From contig JASAND010022176.1 in assembly GCA_030248195.1 (NCBI GenBank), forward strand, positions 1 through 64,000: a stretch of 64,000 nucleotides of DNA, read 5' to 3'. A program made the translations under genes and the position numbers. Positions 32,428 to 56,918 of the stretch are shown here, piece after piece. This DNA is from Trissonchulus latispiculum (Eukaryota > Nematoda > Enoplea > Enoplida > Ironidae). The notes beneath the pieces are model-generated. The model was not told the DNA's origin and made no database searches. It worked only from the letters and a program-made list of their open reading frames with translations. The first letter of the stretch is position 1. Each line of letters begins with the position of its first letter.

Positions 32428-35400
32428 TGACCTCATCGCCACGATGCGGGAAGAATTCCAACTTTTTCGGAAGCATGAAGGTGGAATGATTTGACTCCAG
32501 GAACCGTTGCTTGTCCACTCGCGGGTCCAGGGCCTCCAGCCAAGTGCCCATGGCATTCAGGGAGACCTGCTGGGCCTGAACCATGCATTCACCGGCTCGA
32601 GCCACGGCTGAGAACGTGCTGGAGAACCAAGGGACCATCCCCACATCCAAACACTAAAACAAACAGTAAAAGGGACCATCCCCACATCCAAACACTAAAA
32701 TAAACAGTAAACAACAACAATCACCTAGACACCAAGGAAGGAAGTGCCATCTGGCACGGTGTCGACTACAACACATAATGACGCCCTTCTGAAATTATAG
32801 TAGAATTGTTCCGACCAACAACCTTATATATATGGGGAGCAATATTGATTATTATCGAACTGATTGTTATCTATCACTGTCGTGTGATGCCGAATGCAGT
32901 CGACAACAGATATCAGAACGCCGTGTAACTGAATCTCAAATTGAGAAACCATTCTAAACCAGTCATGTGCAGAAAATGACTAGTCAGATCACAAGTACAC
33001 AAGTCAGATCTACGGGAAAATGAAGAAAGACGTCTAAATTATTATTATTATCATTATTTGTAAACGTCTAAATGAGTTTCAACTCACAGATCAGTTTTGA
33101 ATACTCTACTAAATTCTACATGGTAACAAGTATGTATTATGTAGGGGCGCGATAGCGCCCCTACATAATATGGGTAAAAAGGCGTCTGCGCGGCCCCCTG
33201 GAGACCGTGTTGGCCTGGTGCCAGCTAATTAGAGGTCCGTGAGTGGTAAAAAGGTTACCATCGTAAACAACTCGAGTAGTACTACAAGTACCACCATACT
33301 TTTGGTTCGAATTCGAAACTTCGAATTTTTGCACTAGGCGATAGTTACCGTGCGTTTGTTTTTTTTTTTTTCTCGGTGAATAACGCTTATTGGAAATGCA
33401 TTTTACGGCGAAGTGTTGGAACGATGTGGGCATTTTGGCACCATACTACTATTATATGTTGGTAGACAGGATCCCCCCATGCTACCTTTTTTTGGTCATT
33501 TTGGCACCTGGCCAATTTTGGCTCTGTGCCAAGGTCCCAAAGTCGGACTTTCGCTATTTTTCGCAAATTTTGGTCACACTTTTCTAGAACTGGGTAGAAG
33601 CTGGAGAGGTCTAGTATCTTTTTGTTGAAAACTACCAGTAGGGGTGCATAAAGTAACGAGGGGGATTTTTTAATTTTGCTCCCTAGCTTTCAGGAGATGG
33701 GCCCAAACTTTGCATTTTTTTGGCCTGTTTTGGCGAAAAGTTTCTAAGTCCCACTTTTACTAGAAATGGCCTAAAAGTCACTAAAAATGGCGTTTTTCGG
33801 CCTTGGGGTGGTACCCATATATAGTAAATCGGGGTCGCTGAAAACGATGAGCATACTGCTGAGGTCGGTGGATGTGACCCCTGACCCACAGCGCCCACCC
33901 ACAGTGGGTCCGGTGTGGGTCAAAAATGAAAGTCTTCAAAAGTGGTCAAGTTTGGTATCAAATGAAAGCCCTTGGCGAGGCCATCAACTTTTGTCATTAT
34001 GCCACCCACAAAAAGTGGCTCCACCGACCTGTGGGTGGGTGCCCTACCCACAGTGGGTCCGGTGTGGGTCAAAAATGAAAGTCTTCAAAAGTGGTCAAGT
34101 TTGGTATCAAATGAAAGCCCTTGGCGAGGCGATCAACTTTTGTCATTATGCCACCCACAAAAAGTGGCCCCACCGACCTGTGGGTGGGTGCCCCACCCAC
34201 AGTGGGTCCGGTGTGGGTCAAAAATGAAAGTCTTCAAAAGTGGTCAAGTTTGGTATCAAATGAAAGCCCTTGGCGAGGCGATCAACTTTTGTCATTATGC
34301 CACCCACAAAAAGTGGCCCCACCGACCTGTGGGTGGGTGCCCCACCCACAGTGGGTCCGGTGTGGGTCAAAAATGAAAGTCTTCAAAAGTGGTCATGTTT
34401 GGTATCTAGTGAAAGCCCTTGGCGAGGCGATCAACTTTTGTCATTATGCCACCCACAAAAAGTGGCTCCACCTACCTGTGGGTGGGTGCCCTACCCACAG
34501 TGGGTCCGGTGTGGGTCAAAAATGAAAGTCTTCAAAAGTGGTCAAGTTTGGTATCAAATGAAAGCCCTTGGCGAGGCGATCAACTTTTGTCATTATGCCA
34601 CCCACAAAAAGTGGCCCCACCGACCTGTGGGTGGGTGCCCCACCCACAGTGGGTCCGGTGTGGGTCAAAAATGAAAGTCTTCAAAAGTGGTCAAGTTTGG
34701 TATCAAATGAAAGCCCTTGGCGAGGCGATCAACTTTTGTCATTATGCCACCCACAAAAAGTGGCCCCACCGACCTGTGGGTGGGTGCCCCACCCACAGTG
34801 GGTCCGGTGTGGGTCAAAAATGAAAGTCTTCAAAAGTGGTCATGTTTGGTATCTAGTGAAAGCCCTTGGCGAGGCTATCAAGTTTTGTCATTATACCAGC
34901 CACAAAAAGTGGCTCCACCGACCTGTGGGTGGGTGGCCGGCGTGGGTCAAAAATTAAAGTCTTCAAAAGTGGTCATGTTTGATATTAAATGAAAGCCCAT
35001 TTGCTCACATTTGCCCTGCCTATTGCATTGTTCAAGCTCCTTATCTGCGTTAGCTCACTGCTGGAAAGGGAACCTTTAAAATGACCTTTAACCACTGGTC
35101 ACTATGGTCTATGGTGCCTACTGACCACTGGTCAAACCGCCTAAAACAACGTTTTTCGGCCCTATGGAGGTATCCATATAGTAAATCCGTGTCGCTGAAC
35201 ACGATGGGCATACTGTCGAACTCTTTGGGGAGGCGAAAAAGTTTTATCCTTATACTACCCACAAACACAGGTTGCAGCAGCGGCCGAAGCTTGGGGCGGA
35301 GGTGATAATCAGTTTTCTGTTCTACCTACGGCACTGTTCAAGCTCCTTGTATCCATTACCGCATTGCTGGAAAGGGATCCTTTAAAATGACAGAAGGACA

Positions 35401-38400
35401 AGAAATAAAAATGCTCCTCTGGAGCATGAAAAAAGTAATATGGGTTGTGGTGAGGTTGTAAAATCAAGAGAGGACTAGTCTTTAAAATGCTTAATATGGG
35501 GCTAGGTTCAAAAATAGAAGAGGACTAGGTTGTGAGCGAATTAATATGGGCACAGCTTCGCCGAACAACCCATATTCGCGGGATTTCACGTTTCGTCTTA
35601 GCTTAGAGCTATCAATGTCAGTCAATAAAAAATTTAAACGTTGAATACTCATTGAATATAGCTGTTTGCATGCACTGTTAGACTAGCTAGGAATATATAC
35701 GAAAATTATCATCATTTTGTTGTGTTGGACTACGGCAGGCTCTACTACTAGGAGAGATCTAAGGCTATGATGCTAAAGCTATTGGTCCATGTCGGAGGAA
35801 ATAGAAGATCGTCGGAGAGTCCTAAATTATTCTTGAATATAAATTTTCCGTATAAATGGATACGTAAATTGCGCAGGTTAGTATAAAGCATTTATCGAAG
35901 AAAACGCTTACTAAAATAAAAGTTCGAATAAAGCTCGAACACATACCGTAGCTGTAGATTATTTATGAACTATAAACTAAATGTATCGTGGATATGCATA
36001 ATAATTTACATTGACAAACCGCGAATATGGGTTGTTCGGCGAAGCTGTGCCCATATTAATTCGCTCACAACCTAGTCCTCTTCTATTTTTGAACCTAGCC
36101 CCATATTAAGCATTTTAAAGACTAGTCCTCTCTTGATTTTACAACCTCACCACAACCCATATTACTTTTTTCATGCTCCAGAGGAGCATTTTTATTTCTT
36201 GTATACACTTGCAACAGTTTTATTTTTTGCTACATAAGCCTCCAGCTGCTTACATCCAAGATATCAGAGACGTCTTCAGCAAAATATTTTCTGAGCGCAG
36301 CATTGGCAGCATCGACGCAGAGAAGGTATTCATTCCGGGCCATCAAAGCTTTCAGCTTGAACTCCTGATACTTGATCTGCTTCTGAATATGACAAAAAGC
36401 AAAATATGACAAAAGTGTAACTGACCTATAAAATATGTCAGAAATATGTAGTAAATTAGACACAGGAAAAGGAAATAAACAAATATAACTACTAACATAA
36501 CTAAAAGTAAAAGCAAAAACCTTTTCATAATCCTTCTCCAGCAGACGATATTTTCGACTGCCTAGCTTTTTCGGATGGGATTCCTCAAATTTCATCTTTT
36601 GCAGATCCACAGCCTTAAATTTGGTTTCAGCAATGCAGCTTTCAGCATGGCACAGTTGATAAGTTTTCATAGCCTACAATAAGACACGGGAAACATAAAC
36701 ACAAAATACACAATTTAATGAAGAAAATTTATCATCACAACATTAGTAGGGTATATATTCCGAAAAACCAAAAACGGGCATATCACTTAGTGGTATCCAT
36801 TGCTTTGATCTCGAAGGAAGGGCATTATTTCCATCACTTCCTGAGAAGGTGATCACCATGCTTCAATTTCACCAAAATTAATTCTTTGAGGGGGAACATT
36901 TTCTTTTCCTTTTTCTCTAATTTGCTCACATTTTATCACTCTAGTGGGAAACAGCATGTCGATTATGGATATTCATCAAAAAATTATATTTAATACATGT
37001 ATCGCAATAGGAAGTACGTATATACGGGGCACATATAGACAAAAATAAAGTATTCTCAAGAAAAAGAACGCGACAGTTTGATTCAGTGACACGCTCTTCA
37101 GACAGTAGTAATTATTTTTAGCTTCCTCCCCAAGGATTTTGATCATCTTAAGGCCAGTTTACACCACCAAACTTTCGCCAAACCAAACCTTGGCCAAACT
37201 CAAGTTTGGTGGGAAAAGTTTGGCAAACGTTGTGTTTACACTACCAAACTCCGTTTGACCAAACTTCCTCCAAACATTCACCAAACTTCAGGAGGGATCC
37301 AATGAAATTAAAGAGAATATGCGCGCCAGTTTAAACCTAGTTTAACGTTTTCCTCTAGACATTTATCAGTATTTTAAAGTGGTTTTGTCATAAGTGGAGA
37401 GGAGCTTCCCAAGCACACAATATGTTTCTCTGGTAATTTGCAATCAATTAATTGGTAATTCAAGCAGACTGTAAACGGTTTTAATTTTTATTGTAGTAAG
37501 GCGCATTGTACTTCCATTTACATATTTTCTATTTTCAATATTCCATATTCAATTTTCCATTCAACATTCCCAATACTACATTCCAATACATTATGTTAAT
37601 TCTGACAGCTGGAAACCGTTATTTTTAAATGGCCTGAAACTGAAATTGAAACTCCGATTGAAACTAAAACTAAATCAAATTATTTTGGGCGGCCGACTTA
37701 AAAGAATTTTGGAATGGGGACTAAAACCGAAACTGAAACGAAACGGCTACGGAACCAACACTAATAAATAGTACAAAATTAAAAGGTGACGAAGTGCATA
37801 AGAAATAAATGCATTAAAAATATCTATGCAAGTAGCACAGACACAGGCATGTGATTCTTTGGTGGATTCTGATTGGTCAGTTTCACCAAACGTTTGGTGA
37901 AAATTGCTATGGGACCAAACTCAGTTTGGCAGTTTGGTGGTAGTTTGGTGGAAGTTTGGTGGACGTTTGGTGTACGTTTACACCATCGAACTTTCACCAA
38001 ACTTTCGCCAAACTTGAGTTTGGCCACGGTTTGGTTTGGCGAAAGTTTGGTGGTGTAAACTGGCCTTTACGTTATAACCAACTTCATGTCAAAATAACAT
38101 ACGGACCAGTTTGCGGATGAGATAATGTACGTACATGAAAGCAAGGGATAAACATAGCTACTACAGCCTAGGTATGATTCCTAACAGTGGATTGCACCAA
38201 ATAGGATTAACTCGGTGTTAACTTAACCTCAAGGTTAATACGGTGTTAACCTGTTAACTCTCAGCTAATCCGTTGCACCAAATAAGGGTAAGTTAACCTC
38301 GAGGTTAACTTCGAGTTAACTTAGTCTTCATCATGCAAACTTTAACTCTGATTGTCAGCAGGATTAGCTGAGGACTAACTCAATTTCTAACATTTCCACC

Positions 38401-39329
38401 GTCCTTTATCAGAAAATTTCGGTATGGATTGTTCAATCAGACATTTAAGAATACTTCAGTTTTTTTGGAAAAAATTTTCGCACTATTGTTTCATAATGTG
38501 ACATTTGCGATTTGATCCAATACTTAAATGATAACCTTGAGCTCAGAGTTAAGGGAAAGAAAGACTTAGCTCAGAGTTAACCTCAAGGTTAAAGTAGTCT
38601 TCAGCTAATGTTGACAGATGATGATTGGATACTTTGATTGAGAAAACAAATTTGATTGGCTAACTCTAACCCTGAGCTGAAGCTTAGAGTTTGTTATTCT
38701 TGACAAAACTAAGTTGGTGCAACGGACTAAAGTTTAACACTCAGCTGAAGCTTAGCTGCAGAATAGTTAGCACCGAGTTAACTTGGTGTTAAGCTAACAC
38801 CGAGCTAACTTAGCCCGATTTGGTGCAATCGGGCGTATATGTTACAACCATTGGGAAGCCACATAACAACAGAATATATAGAATAAAATAACAAACAGTA
38901 TAAAAATAAAACAAACTAATGTCAATACTTGCGTAATACGTAGATATATATGTAACAAGAGAAAACCCCAAAAACGTGCTTCCACAGTTCCAAACGTATA
39001 AACATTAACTCCAAAAGCTAATGTTCTTTTTTCTACAACCAAAACTGAAATATGACCAGCCCATTATGACAACAAGAGAAAGAGAAGAGAGAACCCCTAA
39101 GCTCGTTAAAGCTAAGACTTTTGCTTTTTCATCTTTCCATTTCTCCTTTTAATGCTTGCGTAGTTCCGCTGAAAAATAAAGAAAAGCACTCTCTGCTGCC
39201 ATTTCTCAACATCAAAACAACAAAATAAGTACCATAAAACTTGTCAGAAAACAGGAATTACAACATTTTATGCGTAAGCGTACACATTTTGGAGAATGTT
39301 CCATATTTAAATCATAGTTTCTAAAAGGA

Positions 39330-39420
<91 letters not shown>

Positions 39421-42400
39421 TATACAGCAGTTATCACCAAAAATTTCCTAAAAGCAAGAACAAATTTCAAAATCTCAAAGAGTTTCTGTTTCAATGTGGA
39501 ATAATAATAATTCTCAAATGTACCTATATAATACTAACCATACAAACATATACAAAGTCTTGAGAAAAGGGAAGGAACGTCCTGCTCCCCACTATTTTCA
39601 GACAAAAAGGACAATGTTAACAAATTTGAATTAGTGCGCAAATACAACATTTTTAAGACAATTTACAAATAAAATATTAATCGAAGTCCAAATTAGGTTA
39701 AAGTGGTACAACTTTAATAAATATTGGAAAGGTTTCCTTAATTTCTACATGCATTGAACCAAGTTTTTCTAAGGTGATGGTCCCTTCCTAAGACCCACAC
39801 CTAGGATTAGGTAAATATATAACTTAAAAATATATAACAGAAGCAAGAGACGGGAAAAGCCTATCCATTACGTAACATATGACAGAAAGAATCTCCCCAA
39901 ATTTCTGGAAAAAAGGGGGAGCAGAACAAAGCAGCACACATCTGTTTCCCTTCCAGCCAGTTTCCGTATCACAAACAAATTTCTTGGCCCAAACTTTCAC
40001 TTAACAATAAAATAAACTGCGACGAGAATTTTAAGCAAATGTATATAAAGTACGGGATCTTTTCAGGATAACCCACCCCAGGCCCAGATTCCGCAAAACT
40101 TGATCAAATGAGCTGAAATTTGGTATGAGTATGTTTTCAACCACGCTGAGTTCAAATATCGCGAAAATTTTCGATTTCGCGAAATTCTATTTTTTCGATT
40201 CGTAAGGGGGGACCAAGGGGACCCGAAAAATTTTTTGTCTTCGATTTTGCTGAAAAGTTGTATTCAGGGGTTTTCGTGGTCGCAGAACACGAATCTGAAA
40301 TCCGTTTTTCGATTCAGCTTTTCTTTAGCTCAGTATAAGCTACATCTTAAGCTTAGAACTTTAGCTTATATTGAGCTAACGAAAAGCTGAATCGAAAAAC
40401 GGATTTCAGATTCGTGTTCTGCGACCTCGAAAACCCCTGAATTCAACTTTTCAGCAAAATCGAAGACAAAAAATTTTTCGGGTCCCCTTGGTCCCCCCTT
40501 ACGAATCGAAAAAATCGAATTTCGCGAAATCGAAAAATTTTGCGATATTTGAACTCAGCGTGGTCGAAAACATACCCATACCAAATTTCAGCTCATTTGA
40601 TCAAGTTTTGCGGAATCTGGGCCTGGGGTGGGTTATCCTGAAAAGATCCAAAGTACGTATATATACACAAGGTGCCATTTAAAATTACGTACACACACGC
40701 ACACCCATCGCTCGTTACGCAACATACGTACGCTTAGGCTAATGGTGCGAAAAGTATTGCCCAATAAATCATTTTCAGAAAATAGGAAAGTTAAAAGGGA
40801 AGAAACCAGAAACTACATACGCTCATAGGAACGAATGTTGTAATATATAGGTACAATTCATTTGAGTACGTATGTTCTTGCACCATAGACAGGAGAAGCT
40901 GGAGGGATATGCGCAGTTAGAAATACCAAATTATGATTAAACCATTAAACCACAAATACAAGCTAAAAATAGTTGTTTCCCGAAGTACTTAATTACATTG
41001 TGAGCCACGATCAGGTCTATCCATCCTATTATCATTTTAAACAATGTAAGGAGGTGATAGGCAGACAATTTATTATCTTCTCCCGTCCAACCACACCAAC
41101 CCCCCCTCACCACAAACATGGGAACACACGAATGCCAGCAACCACAATGTTGACAGCTCTTTACATGACAGAAGCACAAAGCTATGTAAATAACACAAAG
41201 CTGCTAGGTGTTAACGACAAATGACAGTTAGCTGAGAAATGTATACGTATGATAAATTGTCGGGTATCTTCGCTATGTAGAAGGCATTTTCAGCTTGCTC
41301 TTACGCAAAACGGCGACAATAAAGGTCTTCTTAGGGGGTTTCGCCCCCCCTCCCTCCAAAATGCCTCGCCTCCGAGGGTCCCCAAGAAGCCTCCCCCCAC
41401 GAAAAAGTTATAGAATAAGCTCCGAATTAGGCAAAGCACCGCTCCCCAAAGCCGCGTTACTTTATGTACTGCATGCTAGCTATGTATCACGTATGAGCAT
41501 TGAGCATACATATATACTGTTACATAGTACGTACTGTTTGCTAGGAAGGAGCTTTTTGTACAGAAAATTATGTATCACATACTTATTGGGCTGCCGCTTT
41601 TTTCTTTAGTTATATATAAGCAATAGGCTTCTACTACAAGTAGGTATATACATATTCAAAGTCAGTGAAAAGCCAGAAGCCGTGGCAGGAAACCAGGCAG
41701 TGCGAGTAGCAGGGTAATTACCGTCAAGGTCCTCAAATTTTCTGTGATAAATTAAAGAGAAGGGCTCGGGTGGGGTGCGTACTACTAGAATCAGTCTAGA
41801 CTAAAGGATTATACGAACATATCAAAATGGTGTCCTCCTTTGAAGCAGAAGCTGATAAACACCAACTAGAGAGAGAGAGAAGTTCCAGAAGAGGCCCAAC
41901 CGGAAACTAATCGGATCTGCTCAGAAATCTTCGTTACTGGCTAACGTCATAAAGCTCAAGTCTTAAACTAAATGTAGTAAACACTTTGTAGAAACAGTGG
42001 GGCGTATAGAAAGTATTTTCGAGGTAGGTGGATCTCAAAAAGTTTGGACGAAAGTAGAAAATTTTTGAAAATGAGGTTTGAAAAGCTAAAATGCCTAAGT
42101 GCAAATTAAGTAAATTTCACACCAAAGGAGCGAAAACTTTTTAGTGTCCGCGCGTAATTAAATTATTACTTAGAATCTTCAAGTGTTTCAAATCACGCAT
42201 CCGTCAGGTTCAGGTAAAGTTCAGTTGTGAATTCGCGTGTCTCTAGATTAGATACTTCTTTATTTTAGTACATGCCAATTGCCAAAAATCAAAAAACAAG
42301 TCATTTCATGCAAACAAACCGTATGCAATTCATTGAGAACCCGGAGAATCTCCTGCTGCGCTTCTGTGGCCACTTCTTTGCACTGAAACAAAAATATAAA

Positions 42401-43812
42401 CAATCAAATGGATATAAATTTATTGCCCATCACATAATTAAATAACACAAAATCCAGTGTAATTAAGGGGGGGTCCACCATGAAAAACTTTTTGGTCACG
42501 GATTTTGCTCATTTTCACAAAAATTTTGTCACATATCTCCTGCATATCGAGTTTCAATTTTGAGTAGTTTCGTTCAGTACTTAACGAGTAATCGGCTATT
42601 AATTGCACGCAATTTGAAAACAGGTGAAATTGGCGGTGGCGCAGCAAATAAAGGCACTTTACACCTGAACCTCCTTGAGAATGGAGCTTTCTTCGGATGT
42701 ACGTTTGTTATCTGATGCAAACAAAGAAGTTAGGGTAGCTTTTAACAGGAAAACTTTTCTTTATGACTTTATTTAGTGATTTTAGGGAGTAGCACCGGCG
42801 CTGGAAAGCCTTGATCACGAAAATTATTTAACGGTCGATAACGTGAATTTAGTGCATTTGCGGGCAATGGTCCAAGAAGAAAAAATGTTCCCGACAATGA
42901 GAGCTTTCGATTGATATAAAATTTAACATATTTCGAAAAATTTGAAAAATCGCTACTTTTGAGATTATGGTTGTCAGACCCCCATATTTAACCCCAGCGA
43001 CCAACTGGGTGTGCTCACCTGCATTATTTGTGCCCAAACTTGACCTAAAGTCAAAGATAAAGGTGCGCAAATAGATAGTCAGACATTTTATAGGTCTGTG
43101 ATGCCATAGCTCTATGTTATTTGCCAAAAAACGGGAATTTCCGAAATTTTGCTAAAACTTGATATTTCTGCGCCAGAGAAATCTCGAAATCGGACAGAGC
43201 TAACCAGGATCAATTGGTACCGTTCGAATTGTCTTGTCATAAGCTGTGATTTGTAGAAAGTAGAATTTTTAATTAGGCCTTACAGCTTTCAGAATATTTC
43301 ATCAAACTTGCTGACCCCCAGTTTTAAGATTGCAAAACAGTCAAATTTGGCTGTTCGCAAACTTAAAAATTAATTAAAAATTTTTGAAGGCCTAAATTAA
43401 AATTCTGCTTCCTACAAATCACCCTTCGAGATCGTATTTATGATATAAGATGGATGTTGAAGTGATCCGTTTTGTCGTTGGCGAGATTTCTCTGGCGCAC
43501 GGAAAAATCACCACTTTTTCAGTTTCCTATGTTTAACACATACTGACATAAACTTTGAGGTGAAATTACTCGCTAACCGTAAGAGATCCGACCTTCATTT
43601 CAAAAACTCGTTAAAATATACCAATTGGACAACAAAATATGTGAAAATGAGCAAAATCGGAGATGGTCGAAAAATCGGCCAAAAATGGACCCCCTTAGTA
43701 CCCATAGTGAACCCCATAGTAAACTAGCCTAAACAAATCCGGTGAGCAGGTAAAAAACAATCCAACCCCAGCCAGTCCCCCCCCCTCCGGCTGTCAACTT
43801 CACTATTACGTA

Positions 43813-43889
<77 letters not shown>

Positions 43890-46800
43890 AGTCAGTAGGT
43901 AAACACGATACGAACTACTACGAATTACGATGCATAACGTTCACAAGTGCAAACAGAATCCTTTCCTTTGAAGATCACCGATTTTCATCCATTTCACTAT
44001 CGTGCGTGGTGTCTGTGAGATCAGCAAACGCATTAGAACGTTCAGCACACGACAAGATTCAAAATTCTGATGCTGTAAAGTCTATATTCTATCTTCTATG
44101 TAAATTTTAGAATTCGATGAAGTTGACCAACACCATTACGAAAGGGTTCATTCAAAAGATCCTTTAAGCCTGGTTCACACTGCTGTCTTATGTCTTATGT
44201 CTTTTGTCTTTTGTGTTATGTCGTATATGTTTTATGTCTTAAGACAGAACCGTTCACACTGCTGTCTTATGTCTCTTGTCTTAGGCAGCACATTTGAATC
44301 TTTCAGCCAATCAACTTGACAATGACTAGACTAGCTGCAATGTGATTGGTTATCTCTTAAGACATAAGACAAAAGTTGAGCCTGGCCCAAGTCTGTCTTA
44401 AGACAAAAAGACATACGACATAAGACATAAAACATCAGTGTGAACGCCTTAAGATACAAGACATAAGACAAAAGACATAAGACATAAGACACCAGTGTGA
44501 ACCAGGCTTAACTTGTGTATTTCTTGATGTGGGCATAATGACTGCATTCGTATATACGTAGGTAATATGCGAAAGAATCATGGTCATGCCATCTTTGCCA
44601 AATTTATATCTGGAGAAACAGTATAATGCGTATTTAACATTTTTATTACGCATTTTGTGTGCATTCGACTGTTATTTCATTTTGTTTAGTTGTGTTGTTT
44701 AGTTTAGTTGTGTTAGTATGTTTGAAAATTTTTTCTCAATTTGCTTTTACTTGTTCCTAAGTGGTTTATTCCACAGACACTCAATCTGGGCCTGCGGTGG
44801 GTTATCCTGAAAAGATCCCAGATTTCTGCACGTATATTCGTATATTATGTTTCGAGTGGTTGTTGAAGTTAGCAGTGGGAAGTTTGCGGACCTACCTTCT
44901 GCAACTTTTTGTTTTCTTTTGCTCTATTCCATATTATATACGTATAGTATCATCTATTCATGCACAGCAATACATAGCTAGGAAAGGCATGCAGTGTGAC
45001 GACTCGCTATGTTCACGCCTGTCATATTGCAAGATATCCAGCAAACGATAACGACAGAGAAAATTGCGATTCACCGAAGAAAATAGAGGGCAATTTGTCT
45101 CAAAGAAAATATATACAGTGGGTCCGGTGTGGGTCAAAAATATTATGTAGGGGCGCGATAGCGCCCCTACATAATATGGGTAAAAAGGCGTCTGCGCGGC
45201 CCCCTGGAGACCGTGTTGGCCTGGTGCCAGCTAATTAGAGGTCCGGGAGTGGTAAAAAGGTTACCATCGTAAACAACTCGAGTAGTACTACAAGTACCAC
45301 CATACTTTTGGTTCGAATTCGAAACTTCGAATTTTTGCACTAGGCGATAGTTACCGTGCGTTTGTTTTTTTTTTCTCGGTGAATAACGCTTATTGGAAAT
45401 GCATTTTACGGCGAAGTGTTGGAACGATGTGGGCATTTTGGCACCATACTACTATTATATGTTGGTAGACAGGATCCCCCCATGCTACCTTTTTTTGGTC
45501 ATTTTGGCACCTGGCCAATTTTGGCTCTGTGCCAAGGTCCCAAAGTCGGACTTTCGCTATTTTTCGCAAATTTTGGTCACACTTTTCTAGAACTGGGTAG
45601 AAGCTGGAGAGGTCTAGTATCTTTTGTTGAAAACTACCAGTAGGGGTGCATAAAGTAACGAGGGGGATTTTTTAATTTTGCTCCCTAGCTTTCAGGAGAT
45701 GGGCCCAAACTTTGCATTTTTTTGGCCTGTTTTGGCGAAAAGTTTCTAAGTCCCACTTTTACTAGAAATGGCCTAAAAGTCACTAAAAATGGCGTTTTTC
45801 GGCCTTGGGGTGGTACCCATATATAGTAAATCGGGGTCGCTGAAAACGATGAGCATACTGCTGAGGTCGGTGGATGTGACCCCTGACCCACAGCGCCCAC
45901 CCACAGTGGGTCCGGTGTGGGTCAAAAATGAAAGTCTTCAAAAGTGGTCAAGTTTGGTGTCAAATGAAAGCCCTTGGCGAGGCCATCAACTTTTGTCATT
46001 ATGCCACCCACAAAAAGTGGCCCCACCGACCTGTGGGTGGGTGCCCCACCCACAGTGGGTCCGGTGTGGGTCAAAAATGAAAGTCTTCAAAAGTGGTCAA
46101 GTTTGGTGTCAAATGAAAGCCCTTGGCGAGGCCATCAACTTTTGTCATTATGCCACCCACAAAAAGTGGCCCCACCGACCTGTGGGTGGGTGCCCCACCC
46201 ACAGTGGGTCCGGTGTGGGTCAAAAATGAAAGTCTTCAAAAGTGGTCAAGTTTGGTATCAAATGAAAGCCCTTGGCGAGGCCATCAACTTTTGTCATTAT
46301 GCCACCCACAAAAAGTGGCTCCACCGACCTGTGGGTGGGTGCCCCACCCACAGTGGGTCCGGTGTGGGTCAAAAATGAAAGTCTTCAAAAGTGGTCAAGT
46401 TTGGTATCAAATGAAAGCCCTTGGCGAGGCGATCAACTTTTGTCATTATGCCACCCACAAAAAGTGGCCCCACCGACCTGTGGGTGGGTGCTCCACCCAC
46501 AGTGGGTCCGGTGTGGGTCAAAAATGAAAGTCTTCAAAAGTGGTCAAGTTTGGTATCAAATGAAAGCCCTTGGCGAGGCGATCAACTTTTGTCATTATGC
46601 CACCCACAAAAAGTGGCCCCACCGACCTGTGGGTGGGTGCCCCACCCACAGTGGGTCCGGTGTGGGTCAAAAAGGAAAGTCTTCAAAAGTGGTCAAGTTT
46701 GGTATCAAATGAAAGCCCTTGGCGAGGCCATCAACTTTTGTCATTATGCCACCCACAAAAAGTGGCTTCACCGACCTGTGGGTGGGTGCCCCACCCACAG

Positions 46801-48400
46801 TGGGTCCGGTGTGGGTCAAAAATGAAAGTCTTCAAAAGTGGTCAAGTTTGCTATCAAATGAAAGCCCTTGGCGAGGCGATCAACTTTTGTCATTATGCCA
46901 CCCACAAAAAGTGGCCCCACCGACCTGTGGGTGGGTGCTCCACCCACAGTGGGTCCGGTGTGGGTCAAAAATTAAAGTCTTCAAAAGTGGTCAAGTTTGG
47001 TATATATCAAATGGAAGCCCTTGGCGAGGCGATCAACTTTTGTCATTATGCCACCCACAAAAAGTTGCCCCACCGACCTGTGGGTGGGTGCCCCACCCAC
47101 AGTGGGTCCGGTGTGGGTCAAAAATGAAAGTCTTCAAAAGTGGTCAAGTTTGGTATCAAATGAAAGCCCATTTGCTCACATTTGCCCTGCCTATATATTG
47201 CATTGTTCAAGCTCCTTATCTGCGTTAGCTCACTGCTGGAAAGGGAACCTTTAAAATGACCTTTAACCACTGGTCACTATGGTCTATGGTGCCTACTGAC
47301 CACTGGTCAAACCGCCTAAAACAACGTTTTTCGGCCCTATGGAGGTATCCATATAGTAAATCCGTGTCGCTGAACACGATGGGCATACTGTCGAACTCTT
47401 TGGGGAGGCGAAAAAGTTTTATCCTTATACTACCCACAAACACAGGTTGCAGCAGCGGCCGAAGCTTGGGGCGGAGGTGAGAATTCAGTGGTACTATATA
47501 TTTATATAATCCGTTTTCTGTTCTACCTACGGCACTGTTCAAGCTCCTTGTATCCATTACCGCATTGCTGGAAAGGGATCCTTTAAAATGACAGAAGGAC
47601 AAGAAATAAAAATGCTCCTCTGGAGCATGAAAAAAGTAATATGGGTTGTGGTGAGGTTGTAAAATCAAGAGAGGACTAGTCTTTAAAATGCTTAATATGG
47701 GGCTAGGTTCAAAAATAGAAGAGGACTAGGTTGTGAGCGAATTAATATGGGCACAGCTTCGCCGAACAACCCATATTCGCGGGATTTCACGTTTCGTCTT
47801 AGCTTAGAGCTATCAATGTCAGTCAATAAAAAATTTAAACGTTGAATACTCATTGAATATAGCTGTTTGCATGCACTGTTAGACTAGCTAGGAATATATA
47901 CGAAAATTATCATCATTTTGTTGTGTTGCACTACGGCAGGCTCTACTACTAGGAGAGATCTAAGGCTATGATGCTAAAGCTATTGGTCCAAGTCGGAGGA
48001 AATAGAAGATCGTCGGAGAGTCCTAAATTATTCTTGAATATAAATTTTCCGTATAAATGGATACGTAAATTGCGCAGGTTAGTATAAAGCATTTATCGAA
48101 GAAAACGTTTACTAAAATAAAAGTTCGAATAAAGCTCGAACACATACCGTAGCTGTAGATTATTTATGAACTATAAACTAAATGTATCGTGGATATGCAT
48201 AATAATTTACATTGACAAACCGCGAATATGGGTTGTTCGGCGAAGCTGTGCCCATATTAATTCGCTCACAACCTAGTCCTCTTCTATTTTTGAACCTAGC
48301 CCCATATTAAGCATTTTAAAGACTAGTCCTCTCTTGATTTTACAACCTCACCACAACCCATATTACTTTTTTCATGCTCCAGAGGAGCATTTTTATTTCT

Positions 48401-48438
<38 letters not shown>

Positions 48439-51400
48439 AGTCAGTAGGTAAACACGATACGAACTACTACGAATTACGATGCATAACGTTCACAAGTGCA
48501 AACAGAATCCTTTCCTTTGAAGATCACCGATTTTCATCCATTTCACTATCGTGCGTGGTGTCTGTGAGATCAGCAAACGCATTAGAACGTTCAGCACACG
48601 ACAAGATTCAAAATTCTGATGCTGTAAAGTCTATATTCTATCTTCTATGTAAATTTTAGAATTCGATGAAGTTGACCAACACCATTACGAAAGGGTTCAT
48701 TCAAAAGATCCTTTAAGCCTGGTTCACACTGCTGTCTTATGTCTTATGTCTTTTGTCTTTTGTGTTATGTCGTATATGTTTTATGTCTTAAGACAGAACC
48801 GTTCACACTGCTGTCTTATGTCTCTTGTCTTAGGCAGCACATTTGAATCTTTCAGCCAATCAACTTGACAATGACTAGACTAGCTGCAATGTGATTGGTT
48901 ATCTCTTAAGACATAAGACAAAAGTTGAGCCTGGCCCAAGTCTGTCTTAAGACAAAAAGACATACGACATAAGACATAAAACATCAGTGTGAACGCCTTA
49001 AGATACAAGACATAAGACAAAAGACATAAGACATAAGACACCAGTGTGAACCAGGCTTAACTTGTGTATTTCTTGATGTGGGCATAATGACTGCATTCGT
49101 ATATACGTAGGTAATATGCGAAAGAATCATGGTCATGCCATCTTTGCCAAATTTATATCTGGAGAAACAGTATAATGCGTATTTAACATTTTTATTACGC
49201 ATTTTGTGTGCATTCGACTGTTATTTCATTTTGTTTAGTTGTGTTGTTTAGTTTAGTTGTGTTAGTATGTTTGAAAATTTTTTCTCAATTTGCTTTTACT
49301 TGTTCCTAAGTGGTTTATTCCACAGACACTCAATCTGGGCCTGCGGTGGGTTATCCTGAAAAGATCCCAGATTTCTGCACGTATATTCGTATATTATGTT
49401 TCGAGTGGTTGTTGAAGTTAGCAGTGGGAAGTTTGCGGACCTACCTTCTGCAACTTTTTGTTTTCTTTTGCTCTATTCCATATTATATACGTATAGTATC
49501 ATCTATTCATGCACAGCAATACATAGCTAGGAAAGGCATGCAGTGTGACGACTCGCTATGTTCACGCCTGTCATATTGCAAGATATCCAGCAAACGATAA
49601 CGACAGAGAAAATTGCGATTCACCGAAGAAAATAGAGGGCAATTTGTCTCAAAGAAAATATACATCATAAATTTTGTGATAACAAAAACTGTACGACGCT
49701 GACATCTATCTATCCATTAAGTTAAGTCTATATACGCATGCGTACGTACGTTTTATATATAGGTATATTGGTGCACAACACGTGTAAGAATGCAGTTAGT
49801 TTGGGATGCAATTTTCTGCGCCGTTAAAAAGTGTATATAAATGTCAACTAACAATTGGGCCAACTCATCGAAATTTAGTCTATCAAAAGCAATTAATAAT
49901 ACTTATACCAAACTAACCTACAGAGAACGGATTCAAAAAACAGCATTAGAGTTGGTTCAGCGACCTTCAAAGTTGAAACCCTATATATACACGTGAAACC
50001 TCATAAATACCCAGAGTATTTTTAGTGCTTATTTTCCGGGGCGGGAGGCGTCGTCATCCCGGGTCCGAGGAAAATTTCCGAGGGGGGAGGATATTCAAAT
50101 GTGCAAATGCGGGCCAAAAATTGGTATCTGTTTGGTACATTTTGCATGAACAAACGCTAAAAATTCTCAAATATGCCTGGATTTGGGTTTAAAATAGACG
50201 TTTTTAGGGAACAACCTCCGGCAAAGCTGGAAAATGCTTGAAAGTTTACCTTTATTTGGCAAAAATTTGGGTACCCAAAAAACTAGAGAGGGGAAAATCG
50301 GGGGGGGGGGATTTCGGGAGGGGGTAATTTCGGAGGCAGGTAAGTTTCAAGGGTTTCCGCCCCCCTGTAAATTTGCCGGAGCGATTGAAGTTTAAATTTG
50401 CCGGCGCCGTCATGTAACCGCAAAGCCGGCTTAAAATCTCAAAAATTGTAAAATCTGCACTGTATGCTTGGATAATACGGTGGGTTGAATGAGTTGTTTT
50501 TCAAACTGTTCATTCGTTCTACATAGGGATGCACCGGGGCCTGGCCCCGGTCCCGGTAGTCAGGCCCCGACCGTGGCCCCGGTGGTCAAGCCCCGGTTCT
50601 GACCGGGGCCAAAAAATTTGAAAATTTTTTATTTGGACCCCAAATTTCCTGGCCCCGGCCCCGGTAGTGGCGGCCCCGGTGCATCTCTAGTTCTATATAC
50701 ACTTGGAAGCGAAACCCTAAATTCTACTGCTCCGAAAGACCTTATAATTAATAAATTCTTTATTCACTACCTTGTACGTGTGTAACTGTGTTGTGCGTAC
50801 TTACTTAATTAATTTGAAATTTTGAAACATCATCAACTTTTCGAAACATCTCCCAAACATCTTGTCCCCGAGGGGTCCCCAAGCAAAACACCCAAGAATA
50901 AGCCCAGATACGTGTATGCACACACATAAGAATAAATGTAACAGCATATCTGCTTCCTCAACCGCCTTTTGTTTCTAGCCTAATTAAACGCACATATATA
51001 ACTGAAGTGAAAACCCCTAAAAGGCCGATAACAATCTAGCTAACTGGACAAGCAAAGCAGCTAACGCAACGCAACTATGAATGCCATCGGCGACTCAAAC
51101 TAGCTTAATTACATTAGCTCTCACTCTTCAAGCCAGCCAATAACAACACCAAAGAGGAACGTAATCCTCCGTTTCCCTTTTCAGTAAATTAATCTTTAAA
51201 ACTGAACAGGCTAGGCCACAGCGTATAGTAACATTGAAAGCTATCTAAACGACCCCCCTCCCCCTCTCCATGAATTCTTCCAGCTAGACAGGGCCAGCTT
51301 ATAAATACAAACAAATGGTTAATCTACGTACGTACTTATTTCTGAACACAAAAGGGGTAGGAGCCCCTATCAGGATATTGCTTTTGCTTATTCTAGTGAG

Positions 51401-52689: not shown

Positions 52690-54145
52690 CTGAAAATAAA
52701 GAAATAATAAATGTATAATAAGTTAAGCATATATTAGGGTAAACAAGCTAACTTGCATAAACGGGTTTCCGCCGTCCTTACGTCTCTGTTTGGAAACGTC
52801 ACTCCTGCAGCATTAAATTGCAGCCAATTAAGCTGAATTACATCGTTCCACACTAACGAAAGTTCACTCTTCGGCACGAGAGCATTCTGATAACGAACAT
52901 ATTGGGATGATTCCGCTACTCTCAATTTTGACCATATCATGCAACATAACCGTATCGAGTCTATACTTTCACGTGCCGCAGCGGGGGAAGCACGCAACGG
53001 TGTCCCAGAGCACTTCACCTAGCAGCCAACAGAAATGTCTGTCTGTACGACAAAAACAATTAATCGCATTAATACTAGCTTATGCAGCAAATCAGGGAGG
53101 GATCATCTGCAAAAAATGAACCCATGAACCAAACACTGATAAACAATCTAGACAACTTGATTCGAAAACAGGACAATCTATACACCAGTGCTACAAAACT
53201 GTTACCACTTAGGTACCCTGCCATAATCGAAAGGTAGCTGCTACCCCATCTAACGCTGTGCATTCTTACTGCCGTAGAGATTAACCTCCGCCCTAAAATA
53301 CGCTTTAAAAAGACTTTCCCTTGTACACGCAACAACGCGGAACAAACCAGACAGACAAGCAAACAAACAAACAAACAAACAAACAAACAAAGAAACAAAC
53401 AGCGAAACTTTCAATGAACGAACTGCGCCCGCCGCACCATCGCAATATTAAGTGGTAAAAGATAATCCCTCCCAACAGAGACACATTCGAGACCTACCAG
53501 TCAAGTCCTTCAATTTAGACTTAAGTCGCACCACCATCGAAGCATACAATCCACTGCACCTGGCAAAGCTTAAATTCATAACGAAATTGCGTAATGCAGG
53601 CATATATTATGAACACAGGCAAACAACCAAGTTCGTGTGCCTATTTAGTCGTTATGAAACCTCTATCCTATCTGAATCTGATCCGCTGGCTATCTTAGTG
53701 AGCAGGAAAAAACCAACAAAAAATGTTTCCTCTCTTTCAAGGGAGACCGAAAACTTAAGATAGACCTGTTGAAAAGAGCTAGAGCATTCTACTCAGCTCT
53801 GAAACGAAAGAAGCCTTAGGGGAGTTGCGATACGAAAAGGAGGAAAAATCCATTAGTGTGTACACGGACGGCAGAACATTATCTAATCTAATGTAATGTC
53901 CTAATAAGGTAGGTAAGATAGAAGGCGAGCGGAGTACACATAGGTACAAGGTAAGCAAACGTGCCTACAGGTGATTCAACACAAAATATCCCGATCTATG
54001 CCAAAAAGAGATTGTGATGAGAACTGATAACGATAAGATTAACGAACGAACACGTACCTATATGAAAGTCCTGAGTGCTTAATAAAAATACTCGAGTTCA
54101 ATTCTATGCTGAGTGCAGAATTAGTATAAAGGAAATTATATATAT
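52690..54145. other. Region upstream of the mapped srGAP-like exons
   Basis: Should include the missing first coding exon or lead to it. No frame with a convincing start and donor was found. An (AAAC)n tract lies at 53357-53396. Open frames here are not like known proteins. Confidence 0.4.
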
Positions 54146-54922
54146 ACAAGTAGGAAAAATGCTCCTTGCAGTCGCATGAAAAATACAATATGAGCCAGAA
54201 GGACAGCATTCAATTCGGGAAAAGACAAGATTTAAAATGTGTAATATGAGCCAGCATTTACTTGTATAAAGGACAAGATTTAAAAGTTTAATATGAGCAG
54301 CTCCCTTTCTCGGGCTCATATTGACGCCTTTGGAACGATGTTGTGTACGCAATTTCAATTCCAACGAATAAATCTGTATATACCAGTGTAAGATATAGCT
54401 CATCGGGAGCCTGCTTCAAGTAACTTAACATTGTGACTTAACAATTGTCAATATAGCATTATTTACGTATAAACCAAAACATAATCATAATTACTGTCAT
54501 CTACAGTGTGTCCGTAAATACCAGGGATAATAAACCATTATCTGAGCTATTTTTTAAAAACACACTTCATTCCCAGTAATCATCTTTTTTATCGTTGCCA
54601 GCACAAATAGCTGTCACAGACCCTTGGCTTCTCCGCCACAGGTTTAGCATATTCACTATGTATCTGAGATTTTACTCATTAGAATAGTAGGAACAGAAAC
54701 ACGAATATAGAGAATAACGACTCCCTACGGGCTGTCCGCGGCGTCAATATGAGCCCGAGAAAGGGAGCTGCTCATATTAAACTTTTAAATCTTGTCCTTT
54801 ATACAAGTAAATGCTGGCTCATATTACACATTTTAAATCTTGTCTTTTCCCGAATTGAATGCTGTCCTTCTGGCTCATATTGTATTTTTCATGCGAGTGC
54901 AAGGAGCATTTTTCCTACTTGT
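54146..54922. repeat. Foldback module of copy C (ACAAGTAGG ends)
   Basis: 777 bp with arms of about 185 bp, from ACAAGTAGGAAAAATGCTCC to its complement. AATATGAGC repeats several times inside the arms. Related to 35398-36202 in ends, length and layout. Confidence 0.88.
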
Positions 54923-55290
54923 CCTCCTACATTTTTGGTTGATCCACACAAATGACATAAATTACTCTTTTGTGCTACACAATTCAGAACAAAGGTGAAA
55001 AATGCCTTTTCGATCCAGACTTAAGAGCCACATACATCTTTCACAAAAAGGTCAAATCTGAATAGCCAAAACAGTAGTGATTGTCTCCAGCGTGGGAAGC
55101 CTGTGAAGCCGGTCGGCTACATTTCCCAGGCCGGGCGGCCGCATGAGAATAAACATATATATAAATATATATATATAAACATAAACATAAACGCATATAA
55201 ACAAATATATAAGCAGCAAATTACAACATGTCTGTTCCTAGCTTCTAACATAACATTACAGTGTCATCTCAATATTAGGGAATTATATTG

Positions 55291-56258
55291 TTGTTCAGAG
55301 ACCCCGATTTACAATATAAGGGCAAGCCTTCAGGCAGTTACAACTTGTCTATTTCAAGTTACAGAGCGTGCTGCACGGTGCTGCACCTGCAGCGCCGCAG
55401 CGCAGCACGATGGCAGCACCGCACAGCGACGAGGATACTCTCATCGTGTTCAGCGACCCCGATTTACTATATAAGGGCAAGCTTTCAGGCAGTTACAAGT
55501 TGTCTATTTCAAGTTACAGGGCGTGCTGTACGGTGCTGCACCTGCAGCGCTGCAGCGCAGCACGATAGCAGCGCCGCACAGCGACGAGGATACTCTCATC
55601 GTGTTCAGCGACCCCGATTTACTATATAAGGGCAAGCTTTCAGGCAATTACAACTTGTCTATTTCAAGGAACAGGGCGTGCTGCACGGTGCTGCACTTGC
55701 AGCGCCGCAACGCAGCACGATGGCAGCACCGCACAGCGACGAGGATACTCTCATCGTGTTCAGCGAACTATATAAGGGCAAGCCTTCAGGCAGTTACAAG
55801 TTGTCTATTTCAAGTTACAGAGCGTGCTGCACGGTGCTGCACCTGCAGCGCCGCAGCGCAGCACGATAGCAGCACCGCACAGCGACGAGGATACTCTCAT
55901 CGTGTTCAGCGACCCGATTTACTATATAAGGGCAAGCCTTCAGGCAGTTACAAGTTGTCTATTTCAAGTTACAGAGCGTGCTGCACGGTGCTGCACCTGC
56001 AGCGCCGCAGCGCAGCACGATAGCAGCGCCGCACAGCGACGAGGATACTCTCATCGTGTTCAGCGACCCCGATTTACTATATAAGGGCAAGCTTTCAGGC
56101 AGTTACAACTTGTCTATTTCAAGTTACAGAGCATGCTGCACGGTGCTGCACCTGCAACGCCGCTGCGGCTGCCGCATCGCAGTGCAGCGCAATAGCGGCA
56201 CCACACGGAGAAGCAAACATGCCTATCGTGTTCAGCGACCCCGATTTACTAAATATGG
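55291..56258 (+). repeat. 155-bp tandem array, about 6 monomers
   Basis: TTCAGCGACCCCGATTTACT recurs near 55293 (variant), 55450, 55605, 55760 (9-bp deletion), 55905, 56060 and 56229. Each monomer carries CTATATAAGGGCAAG, then CAGGCAGTTACAA, then a GC-rich self-complementary part (CGTGCTGCACGG against GCAGCGCAGCACG). The frames that run through it shift with each unit and are not genes. Confidence 0.92.
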
Positions 56259-56918
56259 CTGCTCCAGAAAGGCCCAAAATAGTCGTTTTTAGCGACTTTT
56301 CCCCACTTTGACCCTGGGCGAGGAACCATGGGCGCCATGCAGCCCGAGGGTCACATCCGTCGGTTTCGGCGATATGCTCATCGTTTTCAGCGACCCCGAT
56401 TTACTATATATGCGCATCACCAAATGGCCGAAAAACGCCATTTTAGACGACTTTTTGACAATTTTCTGTGTTGGGGCCTCGAAAAATTTCTAAGTCCAAA
56501 CGCTTCGCGACCCTATGTTTGACAGTCTGTAAAAATCGCTAGGAGCCGAATTGGGCCAAAATAATCAATAGTGAACAGGTTCATGGTTTGGTTAACAAGA
56601 TAATAATAGGTAAAGGTTGCCACCATACGACATGTGAAAAATCAGTGTGCTAGAAAATGTACCAAAAGCGTAAAGGAGAAACATTGGAGAAAAAACCCCA
56701 CTTAGAAAGTAGGTCTGAAAAGTGAAAATTCTCAAAGTTCATTTTTTCCGAGCAAGTTTGGTATCATTCGAAAGCTCTTGGCCTGGAGATTTCGAAAATG
56801 TAAATATTAGCTCTTAATTCCTTACCGTTAATTAGTTATGCCTAATTAAGCATTTTGAAAACACGCAATGTACCTTTTTGGCTCATATTATGGGGCGCTC
56901 TCCGAGCTGCCCCATGAT

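Follow-up and report, generated by a model that had tools for sequence, protein, structure and literature searches.

Probable non-canonical, protein-less Helitron-superfamily elements with satellite arrays and an inverted duplicate of their 3' end in the nematode Trissonchulus latispiculum

Introduction

What kind of mobile element carries a hairpin at one end, a tandem satellite in its interior and a long foldback at the other end, and do these parts travel together? This question is raised by a stretch of 64,000 nucleotides (the window, at its whole length) from the nematode Trissonchulus latispiculum (assembly GCA_030248195.1, contig JASAND010022176.1, positions 1 to 64,000 of the forward strand). 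The original prediction, made by inspection of the letters, described there two near-identical copies of a composite repeat (33135-36202 and 45141-48403) and one inverted, diverged copy with the same order of modules. Self-comparison and repeat finders confirm this description: the three copies, named A, B and C, have in common the order 5' hairpin, TATA core, satellite and foldback. The evidence presented below indicates that A, B and C are very probably non-autonomous, protein-less and non-canonical elements of the Helitron superfamily, which would be mobilised by a rolling-circle mechanism.

Ends of the element and insertion site

The copies are real, and the limits first claimed for them shift by one or two bases on junction evidence: A and B run from TTATG to CTTG, and C runs from TCATG to CTTG (Table 1). 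A and B are members of one family: besides small indels, substitutions separate them at one of 755 aligned positions in the 5' part and at nine of 1,269 in the 3' part, five of the nine lying in the last monomer; their arrays differ more, in monomer number (7.0 versus 8.5) and in the order of the variants. When A and C were used as queries against the rest of the window (E 0.01), nothing matched apart from simple TA repeats and, next to B, a 27-nt piece of satellite.

The ends were also read at 30 loci of the genome, two of which (L044 and L046) have no intact 5' end. At the 28 intact 5' ends, where the T before TATG was fixed by the search pattern in every case, TTATG is preceded by A in 27 and by T in one. 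At the other side, CTTG closes A, B, C and 29 of the 30 loci, the remaining one (L082) being cut 3 nt short, and the base following CTTG is T in 28 of 29 and G in one. The element has defined ends.

One insertion could be compared with its empty site. A copy on contig C19728 has landed in one arm of a foldback element related to these. The empty site CTCTACTTA^TTTAGATG is intact in locus L067 and, within L042, in the opposite arm of the target. The occupied site reads CTCTACTTA/TTATG...CTTG/TTTAGATG, and its comparison with the empty one shows no target duplication; at this one site the element is inserted between A and T without duplicating the target. Insertion at A^T without target duplication is the rule for Helitrons (PMC4067079).

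Related to this, left and right flanks were compared in 18 pairs: ten have no edge sequence in common, five have TA and three have TA repeats. Since ten pairs have no common edge, a TA duplication is not general, and the flanking TA is read as target preference. Runs of TA appear commoner after the 3' end than before the 5' end (11 of 29 right flanks start with TATATA against 5 of 28 left flanks ending in three TA). A retroposon with a (TA)n tail was considered and rejected, several copies having no TA tail.

Table 1. Features of the three element copies and of the surroundings of copy B (window positions)
Feature	Coordinates	Strand	Remarks
Element copy A	33137..36201	+	Ends TTATG...CTTG, inserted A^T; self-comparison and junction evidence
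A 5' terminal hairpin	33137..33168	+	14-bp stem, 4-nt loop; flanking TA adds 2 pairs
A 5' AATATGGG box	33167..33174	+	With its neighbours builds the 10-bp subterminal inverted repeat TAATATGGGT
A core 1 (CATATATAGTAAATCGGGGTCGCTGAAAACGATGAGCATA)	33816..33855	+	
A satellite array	33894..34935	+	149-bp monomer, 7.0 copies
A core 2	35175..35212	+	Diverged, after array
A foldback left arm	35398..35581	+	Inverted duplicate of 3' end; three boxes (35437, 35493, 35543) plus a fourth, inverted one
A foldback right arm	36019..36201	+	3' terminal domain; identical to left arm
A 3' palindrome	36173..36189	+	ATGCTCC AGA GGAGCAT; 17 nt, 12 nt before 3' end
1,260-bp direct duplication, left copy	43854..45113	+	100% identical, brackets B
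Satellite-monomer fragment	45115..45141	+	27 nt, directly left of B (5' side); similarity search
Element copy B	45143..48402	+	A-type, ends TTATG...CTTG; self-comparison and junction evidence
B satellite array	45896..47169	+	149-bp monomer, 8.5 copies
B foldback left arm	47599..47782	+	
B foldback right arm / 3' end	48220..48402	+	
1,260-bp direct duplication, right copy	48403..49662	+	
Element copy C	54147..56917	-	Diverged family, ends TCATG...CTTG; self-comparison and junction evidence
C foldback right arm / 3' end	54147..54328	-	
C foldback left arm	54740..54922	-	AATATGAG boxes
C satellite array	55292..56167	-	155-bp monomer containing core, 5.7 copies
C core 1	56373..56412	-	
C 5' hairpin	56890..56917	-	Stem sequence unlike A; z -4.3, 0/200 shuffles as low

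Terminal hairpin, AATATGRG boxes and subterminal repeats

The 5' hairpin of A, with its flanking TA, folds at -18.6 kcal/mol (z -7.6; none of 200 dinucleotide shuffles as low). Hairpins with other stem sequences occupy the same end in C and in a third family (L043, L048), and the 5' hairpin is thus kept despite sequence change.

At the foot of this hairpin lies an AATATGRG box, a motif that was absent from the modules listed in the original prediction and is added to them here. There are 30 such boxes in the window, counting both strands, and 27 of them are inside the elements, nine in each. Besides the box of the 5' end, each foldback arm has three that point one way and one reversed, the three being spaced by 56 and 50 nt in A and by 56 and 47 nt in C. 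The variable base is specific to the family: GGG in all nine boxes of A and all nine of B, and GAG (AATATGAG) in all nine of C. As the arms are copies of each other, the number of independent sites in each family is five rather than nine. The presence of the same family-specific base at both ends of the element and in both arms suggests that one binding protein recognises the boxes in all these places.

The 5' and 3' ends are also connected by an inverted pair of 10 bp in A (TAATATGGGT) and 11 bp in C (AATATGAGCCA), located 38 and 41 nt from the 3' end, respectively. When the last 70 nt were searched, 2 of 500 shuffles for A and none for C gave a pair as good, and with the last 200 nt the figures were 9 and 0. 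This repeat starts around 30 nt inside the element; within the first 20 nt, no inverted match to the 3' end beyond those of shuffles was found. Close to the 3' terminus, the palindrome of A was not equalled by any of 200 shuffles.

The foldback as part of the element

The foldback is an inverted duplicate of the 184-nt 3' domain. In A and B its two arms match perfectly for 184 nt, and in C their identity is 99.5%. Self-comparison places the arms at 35398-35588/36012-36202 in A, 47599-47789/48213-48403 in B and 54146-54328/54740-54922 in C. About half of the positions are shared between the arms of A and those of C. The spacers between the arms have similar lengths (423 nt in A and 411 nt in C) and cannot be aligned with each other above shuffles.

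That the foldback belongs to the unit, as had been proposed, is sustained by its lack of a separate insertion edge: on the right it stops where the element stops, and its left flank is the same wherever it was listed (27 of 30 loci). This bears on the possibility that the foldback is an independent miniature inverted-repeat transposable element (MITE), which inserted a single time into a satellite-bearing ancestor and has since travelled with it. An 805-bp unit with near-perfect inverted repeats is MITE-like, and the failure of the A and C spacers to align would agree with such an origin; this explanation is very unlikely, however, because the right end of the foldback coincides with the element end in A, B, C and all the genome loci except the truncated one, the box with the family-specific base is found at the 5' end of the element too, and the arms remain alike within each family though the families differ at about half of the positions.

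A cut-and-paste (DDE) transposon of foldback or MITE type, such as Tetris or Galileo, was also weighed, the long inverted repeats being in that case the carriers of the transposase sites and of the satellites. The 184-nt inverted repeats with iterated boxes are in its favour, and internal repeats are known in the terminal inverted repeats of Galileo and Tetris, some of them with transposase sites (PMC4079207); the elements described here resemble Tetris and Galileo in having inverted repeats with repeated units and in the emergence of satellites. Nevertheless, Tetris has terminal inverted repeats and target duplications of 8-10 bp (PMC4079207), whereas the outer ends here are not inverted repeats of each other in their first 20 nt, no duplication exists at the resolved site, and the flank pairs share nothing (10 of 18) or only TA or TA repeats (8 of 18). 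Moreover, the left arm is internal to the element, with a flank that is common across loci. A DDE origin is consequently highly improbable.

Both arms could be read at 29 of the 30 genome loci: in 19 both arms have the consensus, in three (L081, L085 and L086, with one each) a private substitution is common to both arms, and in seven the arms differ by a change in one of them. Since the query contained the right arm, the identity of the arms is partly a selection effect, but the three private changes present in both arms are not explained by query selection.

In the four related copies with a spacer match the arm is more A-like than the spacer, the identities to A over the aligned part being 91.9 versus 71.0% in L036, 97.3 versus 94.4% in L063, and 96.7 versus 76.7% in both L097 and L098, which belong to one subfamily. 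At L075, L085 and L104 the arm matched at 92.9, 92.7 and 78.6%, respectively, and a spacer match was not found; at L096, L100 and L101 the arm lies at the edge of the stretch. Overall, the foldback arms look under stronger constraint than the spacer.

Core and satellite arrays

The core had been proposed as a separate module. This holds for A and B, in which one core precedes the array and a second, diverged core follows it; in C the core recurs inside the array at the spacing of the monomer. Seven core starts were counted there, with spacings of 155, 172, 154, 146, 155 and 155 nt, and one of the cores is partly deleted.

The monomers of A (149 bp) and C (155 bp) are no more alike than shuffles, in line with the complete difference originally claimed: alignment scores of 20 and 22 on the two strands compare with shuffle means of 21.2 and 20.6. 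Two further alignments were obtained. The C unit between the first two cores aligns with the C monomer (score 85, shuffle mean 25.6), and the C stretch following core 1 aligns with the stretch of A that runs from core 1 into the first monomer (41 versus a mean of 20.0, the best of 300 shuffles being 34). In the light of these alignments, the arrays of A/B and C look like different segments of one older repeated region with units of about 150 bp.

Joint movement and abundance in the genome

The genome searched was the assembly to which the window belongs (733.8 Mb, 21,732 contigs). A first look gave 3208 candidates for the 5' module and 2563 for the spacer plus right arm, and the best 40 for each module were scored; these are the best matches rather than a random sample, and all are 98-100% identical over nearly the whole query. 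Among the 40 + 40 best places, 5' and 3' modules form 28 pairs, each on one strand and 2,511-5,945 bp apart. Mapping of co-occurrence thus agrees with the idea that the assembly moves as a unit, and among the examined copies the modules do move jointly. Eleven of the 24 unpaired places were sampled with stretches of 1.7-1.8 kb, and the partner module is present in six of them (L096, L097, L098, L100, L102 and L103).

Further related families or subfamilies are found at L043, L048, L067, L036 and L075, often nested or adjoining. In the viral_contigs and genome_contigs collections, the core pattern gave no matches and the 5' pattern gave one (L001), within a coding stretch of a viral contig and without hairpin, which was taken as chance; a spaced-box pattern matched 25 viral stretches.

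Coding content and source of the transposition protein

No gene was recognised by eye among the listed long open frames of A, B and C, and three protein searches (two with pseudo-frames of the element and one with an HSL-like exon) found nothing within their limits. Concerning RNA, the window has no Rfam matches at gathering scores and A has only sub-threshold ones, and, folded as single strands, neither the core nor the inner arm hairpin is distinct from shuffles; an RNA or ribozyme reading was rejected on these grounds.

The domain Helitron_like_N is matched 147 times in this genome, with many of the matches inside long open frames, and 14 control genomes gave no match, so a RepHel source is present. 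The original prediction had advised a search for an autonomous Rep/helicase or transposase element sharing the ends, and such a partner was not identified in a small sample beside five Helitron open reading frames (stretches beside those of C17284, C17799, C16875 and C15350, where the 5' stretch is shorter than 1 kb owing to the contig end, and one stretch on C13607). Near the C17799 frame there are two lone AATATGRG boxes without a hairpin. At L092, on C16875, an open frame downstream of the Helitron_like_N match may encode an endonuclease-like domain, to judge by eye from a motif, so that true Helentrons may coexist in this genome.

Relationship with known rolling-circle elements

With Helitron1 the elements share insertion at A^T without target duplication, the lack of terminal inverted repeats, a 5' TC (in C) and, in A, a palindrome that stops 12 nt short of the 3' end. 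The palindrome expected in Helitron1 (16-20 nt long, around 11 nt from the end) fits that of A and not that of C. They differ from Helitron1 in ending with CTTG instead of CTRR, in the TT start of family A, in the presence of a 5' hairpin, and in the repetition of the 3' end in inverted form.

Helitron2 elements have hairpins at both ends with compensatory changes (PMC3627910, Bao and Jurka 2013). The likeness to them lies in the hairpins at both ends of A (C has a clear one at the 5' end only), the maintenance of the 5' hairpin through sequence change, the subterminal inverted repeats and the 5' T. On the other hand, the target is A^T here and TTTT^T/C in Helitron2 (PMC3627910), and the repeat, located some 30 nt from the 5' terminus, overlaps the 3' strand of the hairpin, while the 5' asymmetrical terminal inverted repeat (ATIR) of Helitron2 is placed 0-2 nt from the end, inside the hairpin.

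HINE elements carry satellites between two modules (PMC4067079, PMC7492417), and the original prediction had remarked on a resemblance to this HINE/'pearl' group. The resemblance stands in outline, as regards the rolling-circle affinity and the satellite cargo: as in HINE, Cg_HINE and pearl, protein-less elements bear an array between left and right modules, and related ends accompany unrelated monomers, a situation known in Cg_HINE group 2 (PMC7492417, section 8). Furthermore, the 3' subterminal repeat falls within the 38-60 nt from the end that characterise HINE/Helentron elements, with the palindrome beyond it in A. Membership is not supported, and it is extremely unlikely that these are HINE/Helentron (pearl-type) elements proper: they insert at A^T and not in the T-rich T^T target of that group (PMC4067079), their 5' repeat lies about 30 nt and not 2-4 nt from the end, and they have a long foldback.

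The proto-Helentron of Phytophthora also starts with TT and inserts at A^T without target duplication, but it encodes Rep/Helicase and ends in CTAG (PMC4067079). Variant ends are also reported in the FoHeli elements, for which self-insertion has been proposed as a route to composites with extra termini (PMC5148889). Given the absence of CTRR, of a TT target and of an ATIR at the Helitron2 position, the elements are placed as a non-canonical form of the superfamily and not in Helitron1, Helitron2 or HINE.

The foldback, as an inverted duplicate of the 3' end with family-specific boxes, is the unusual part. No Helitron with its entire 3' domain duplicated in inverted form was met in the excerpts of the literature on Helitrons, foldback elements and palindromes (including PMC7492417 and PMC5139131), which does not prove its absence from print.

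Several observations weigh against a place in the Helitron superfamily. An empty site is available for one insertion only, though seen in two unoccupied copies; the 3' end departs from CTRR, and the 5' TC is found in C and not in family A. The 3' palindrome of C is weak, with 53 of 200 shuffles as low, and the alignment of the A and C arms scores 15, above the shuffle mean of 2.9 and below the maximum of 22 (500 shuffles). All seven single-arm differences are in the left arm, the query having held the right one. The places scored in the genome, being best matches, favour intact copies, and five of the eleven sampled unpaired places (L099, L101, L104, L105 and L106) have no partner module within the 1.7-1.8 kb read, which is a short range. 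Finally, no RepHel element with these ends was seen in the nine stretches beside the five Helitron open reading frames.

Proposed mechanism

The protein, the direction of movement and the role of boxes and arms are parts of the mechanism that we infer. A RepHel encoded elsewhere in the genome would nick at the 5' T and would bind the AATATGRG boxes of the 3' domain as well as the one beside the 5' hairpin. One strand would then be copied, with termination at the 3' CTTG beyond the palindrome. Satellite and core would be cargo, able to expand and contract, and the foldback would provide RepHel boxes once more, in inverted orientation, along with a spare copy of the terminator, and its arms would be kept alike by conversion between them.

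By analogy with the rolling-hairpin replication of parvovirus type, the foldback could also be imagined as a self-priming tail, an unlikely role: in the released single strand the right arm, which reaches the exact 3' terminus, would pair with the left arm, and the 3'-OH would start second-strand synthesis toward the 5' hairpin. If this were true, the identity of the arms would also be explained, as one would be copied over and over on the template of its partner.

Surroundings of the copies and other features of the window

Copy B is bracketed by the 1,260-bp direct duplication, which, like the 27-nt satellite fragment at its 5' side, does not figure in the original prediction. This type of flank duplication was found in one of 19 flank pairs; C5053, C18190, C6107 and C19270 show short or imperfect matches away from the junction. 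The reading of these repeats as long terminal repeats was rejected, as they have no TG start or CA end, their interior is a complete A-type element and they occur in that single flank pair. The duplication could stem from rolling-circle copying in tandem, from a template switch between TA-rich sites or from an error of assembly. Within it, 44164-44511 and its duplicate in 48403-49662 contain an inverted repeat GCCTGGTTCACACTG...CAGTGTGAACCAGGC with TTAA on either side and abundant TAAGACA heptamers.

Other inverted repeats were observed in the window. One at 40047-40657 has 288-nt arms and is bordered on either side by AAAGTACG, which suggests an 8-bp target duplication; a 37-nt piece of it is found inside the 1,260-bp segment. 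Another, at 16189-17065, has 348-nt arms that are 98% alike, G-run ends and TTAA on either side, and resembles a MITE of piggyBac type. Traces of host genes, which point to an animal genome, include an HSL N-terminal domain, an SRGAP-like F-BAR exon and a RhoGAP stretch. Some 50 bp (36202-36256) separate the end of copy A from the apparent splice donor (by eye) of the SRGAP-like exon, which is on the minus strand.

Implications

If the proposed affinity is correct, these elements would represent a new design of ends in the Helitron superfamily, in which A^T targeting goes together with a 5' hairpin, with iterated family-specific boxes at either end and with a conserved, inverted duplicate of the 3' end. 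The change from GGG to GAG, common to both ends and both arms, points to one identifiable binding protein. As the copies are very similar and apparently numerous, termination, conversion between arms and satellite turnover would be measurable in a single genome. Besides, satellites would be dispersed in this nematode by apparent rolling-circle elements, in the case described here into an intron.

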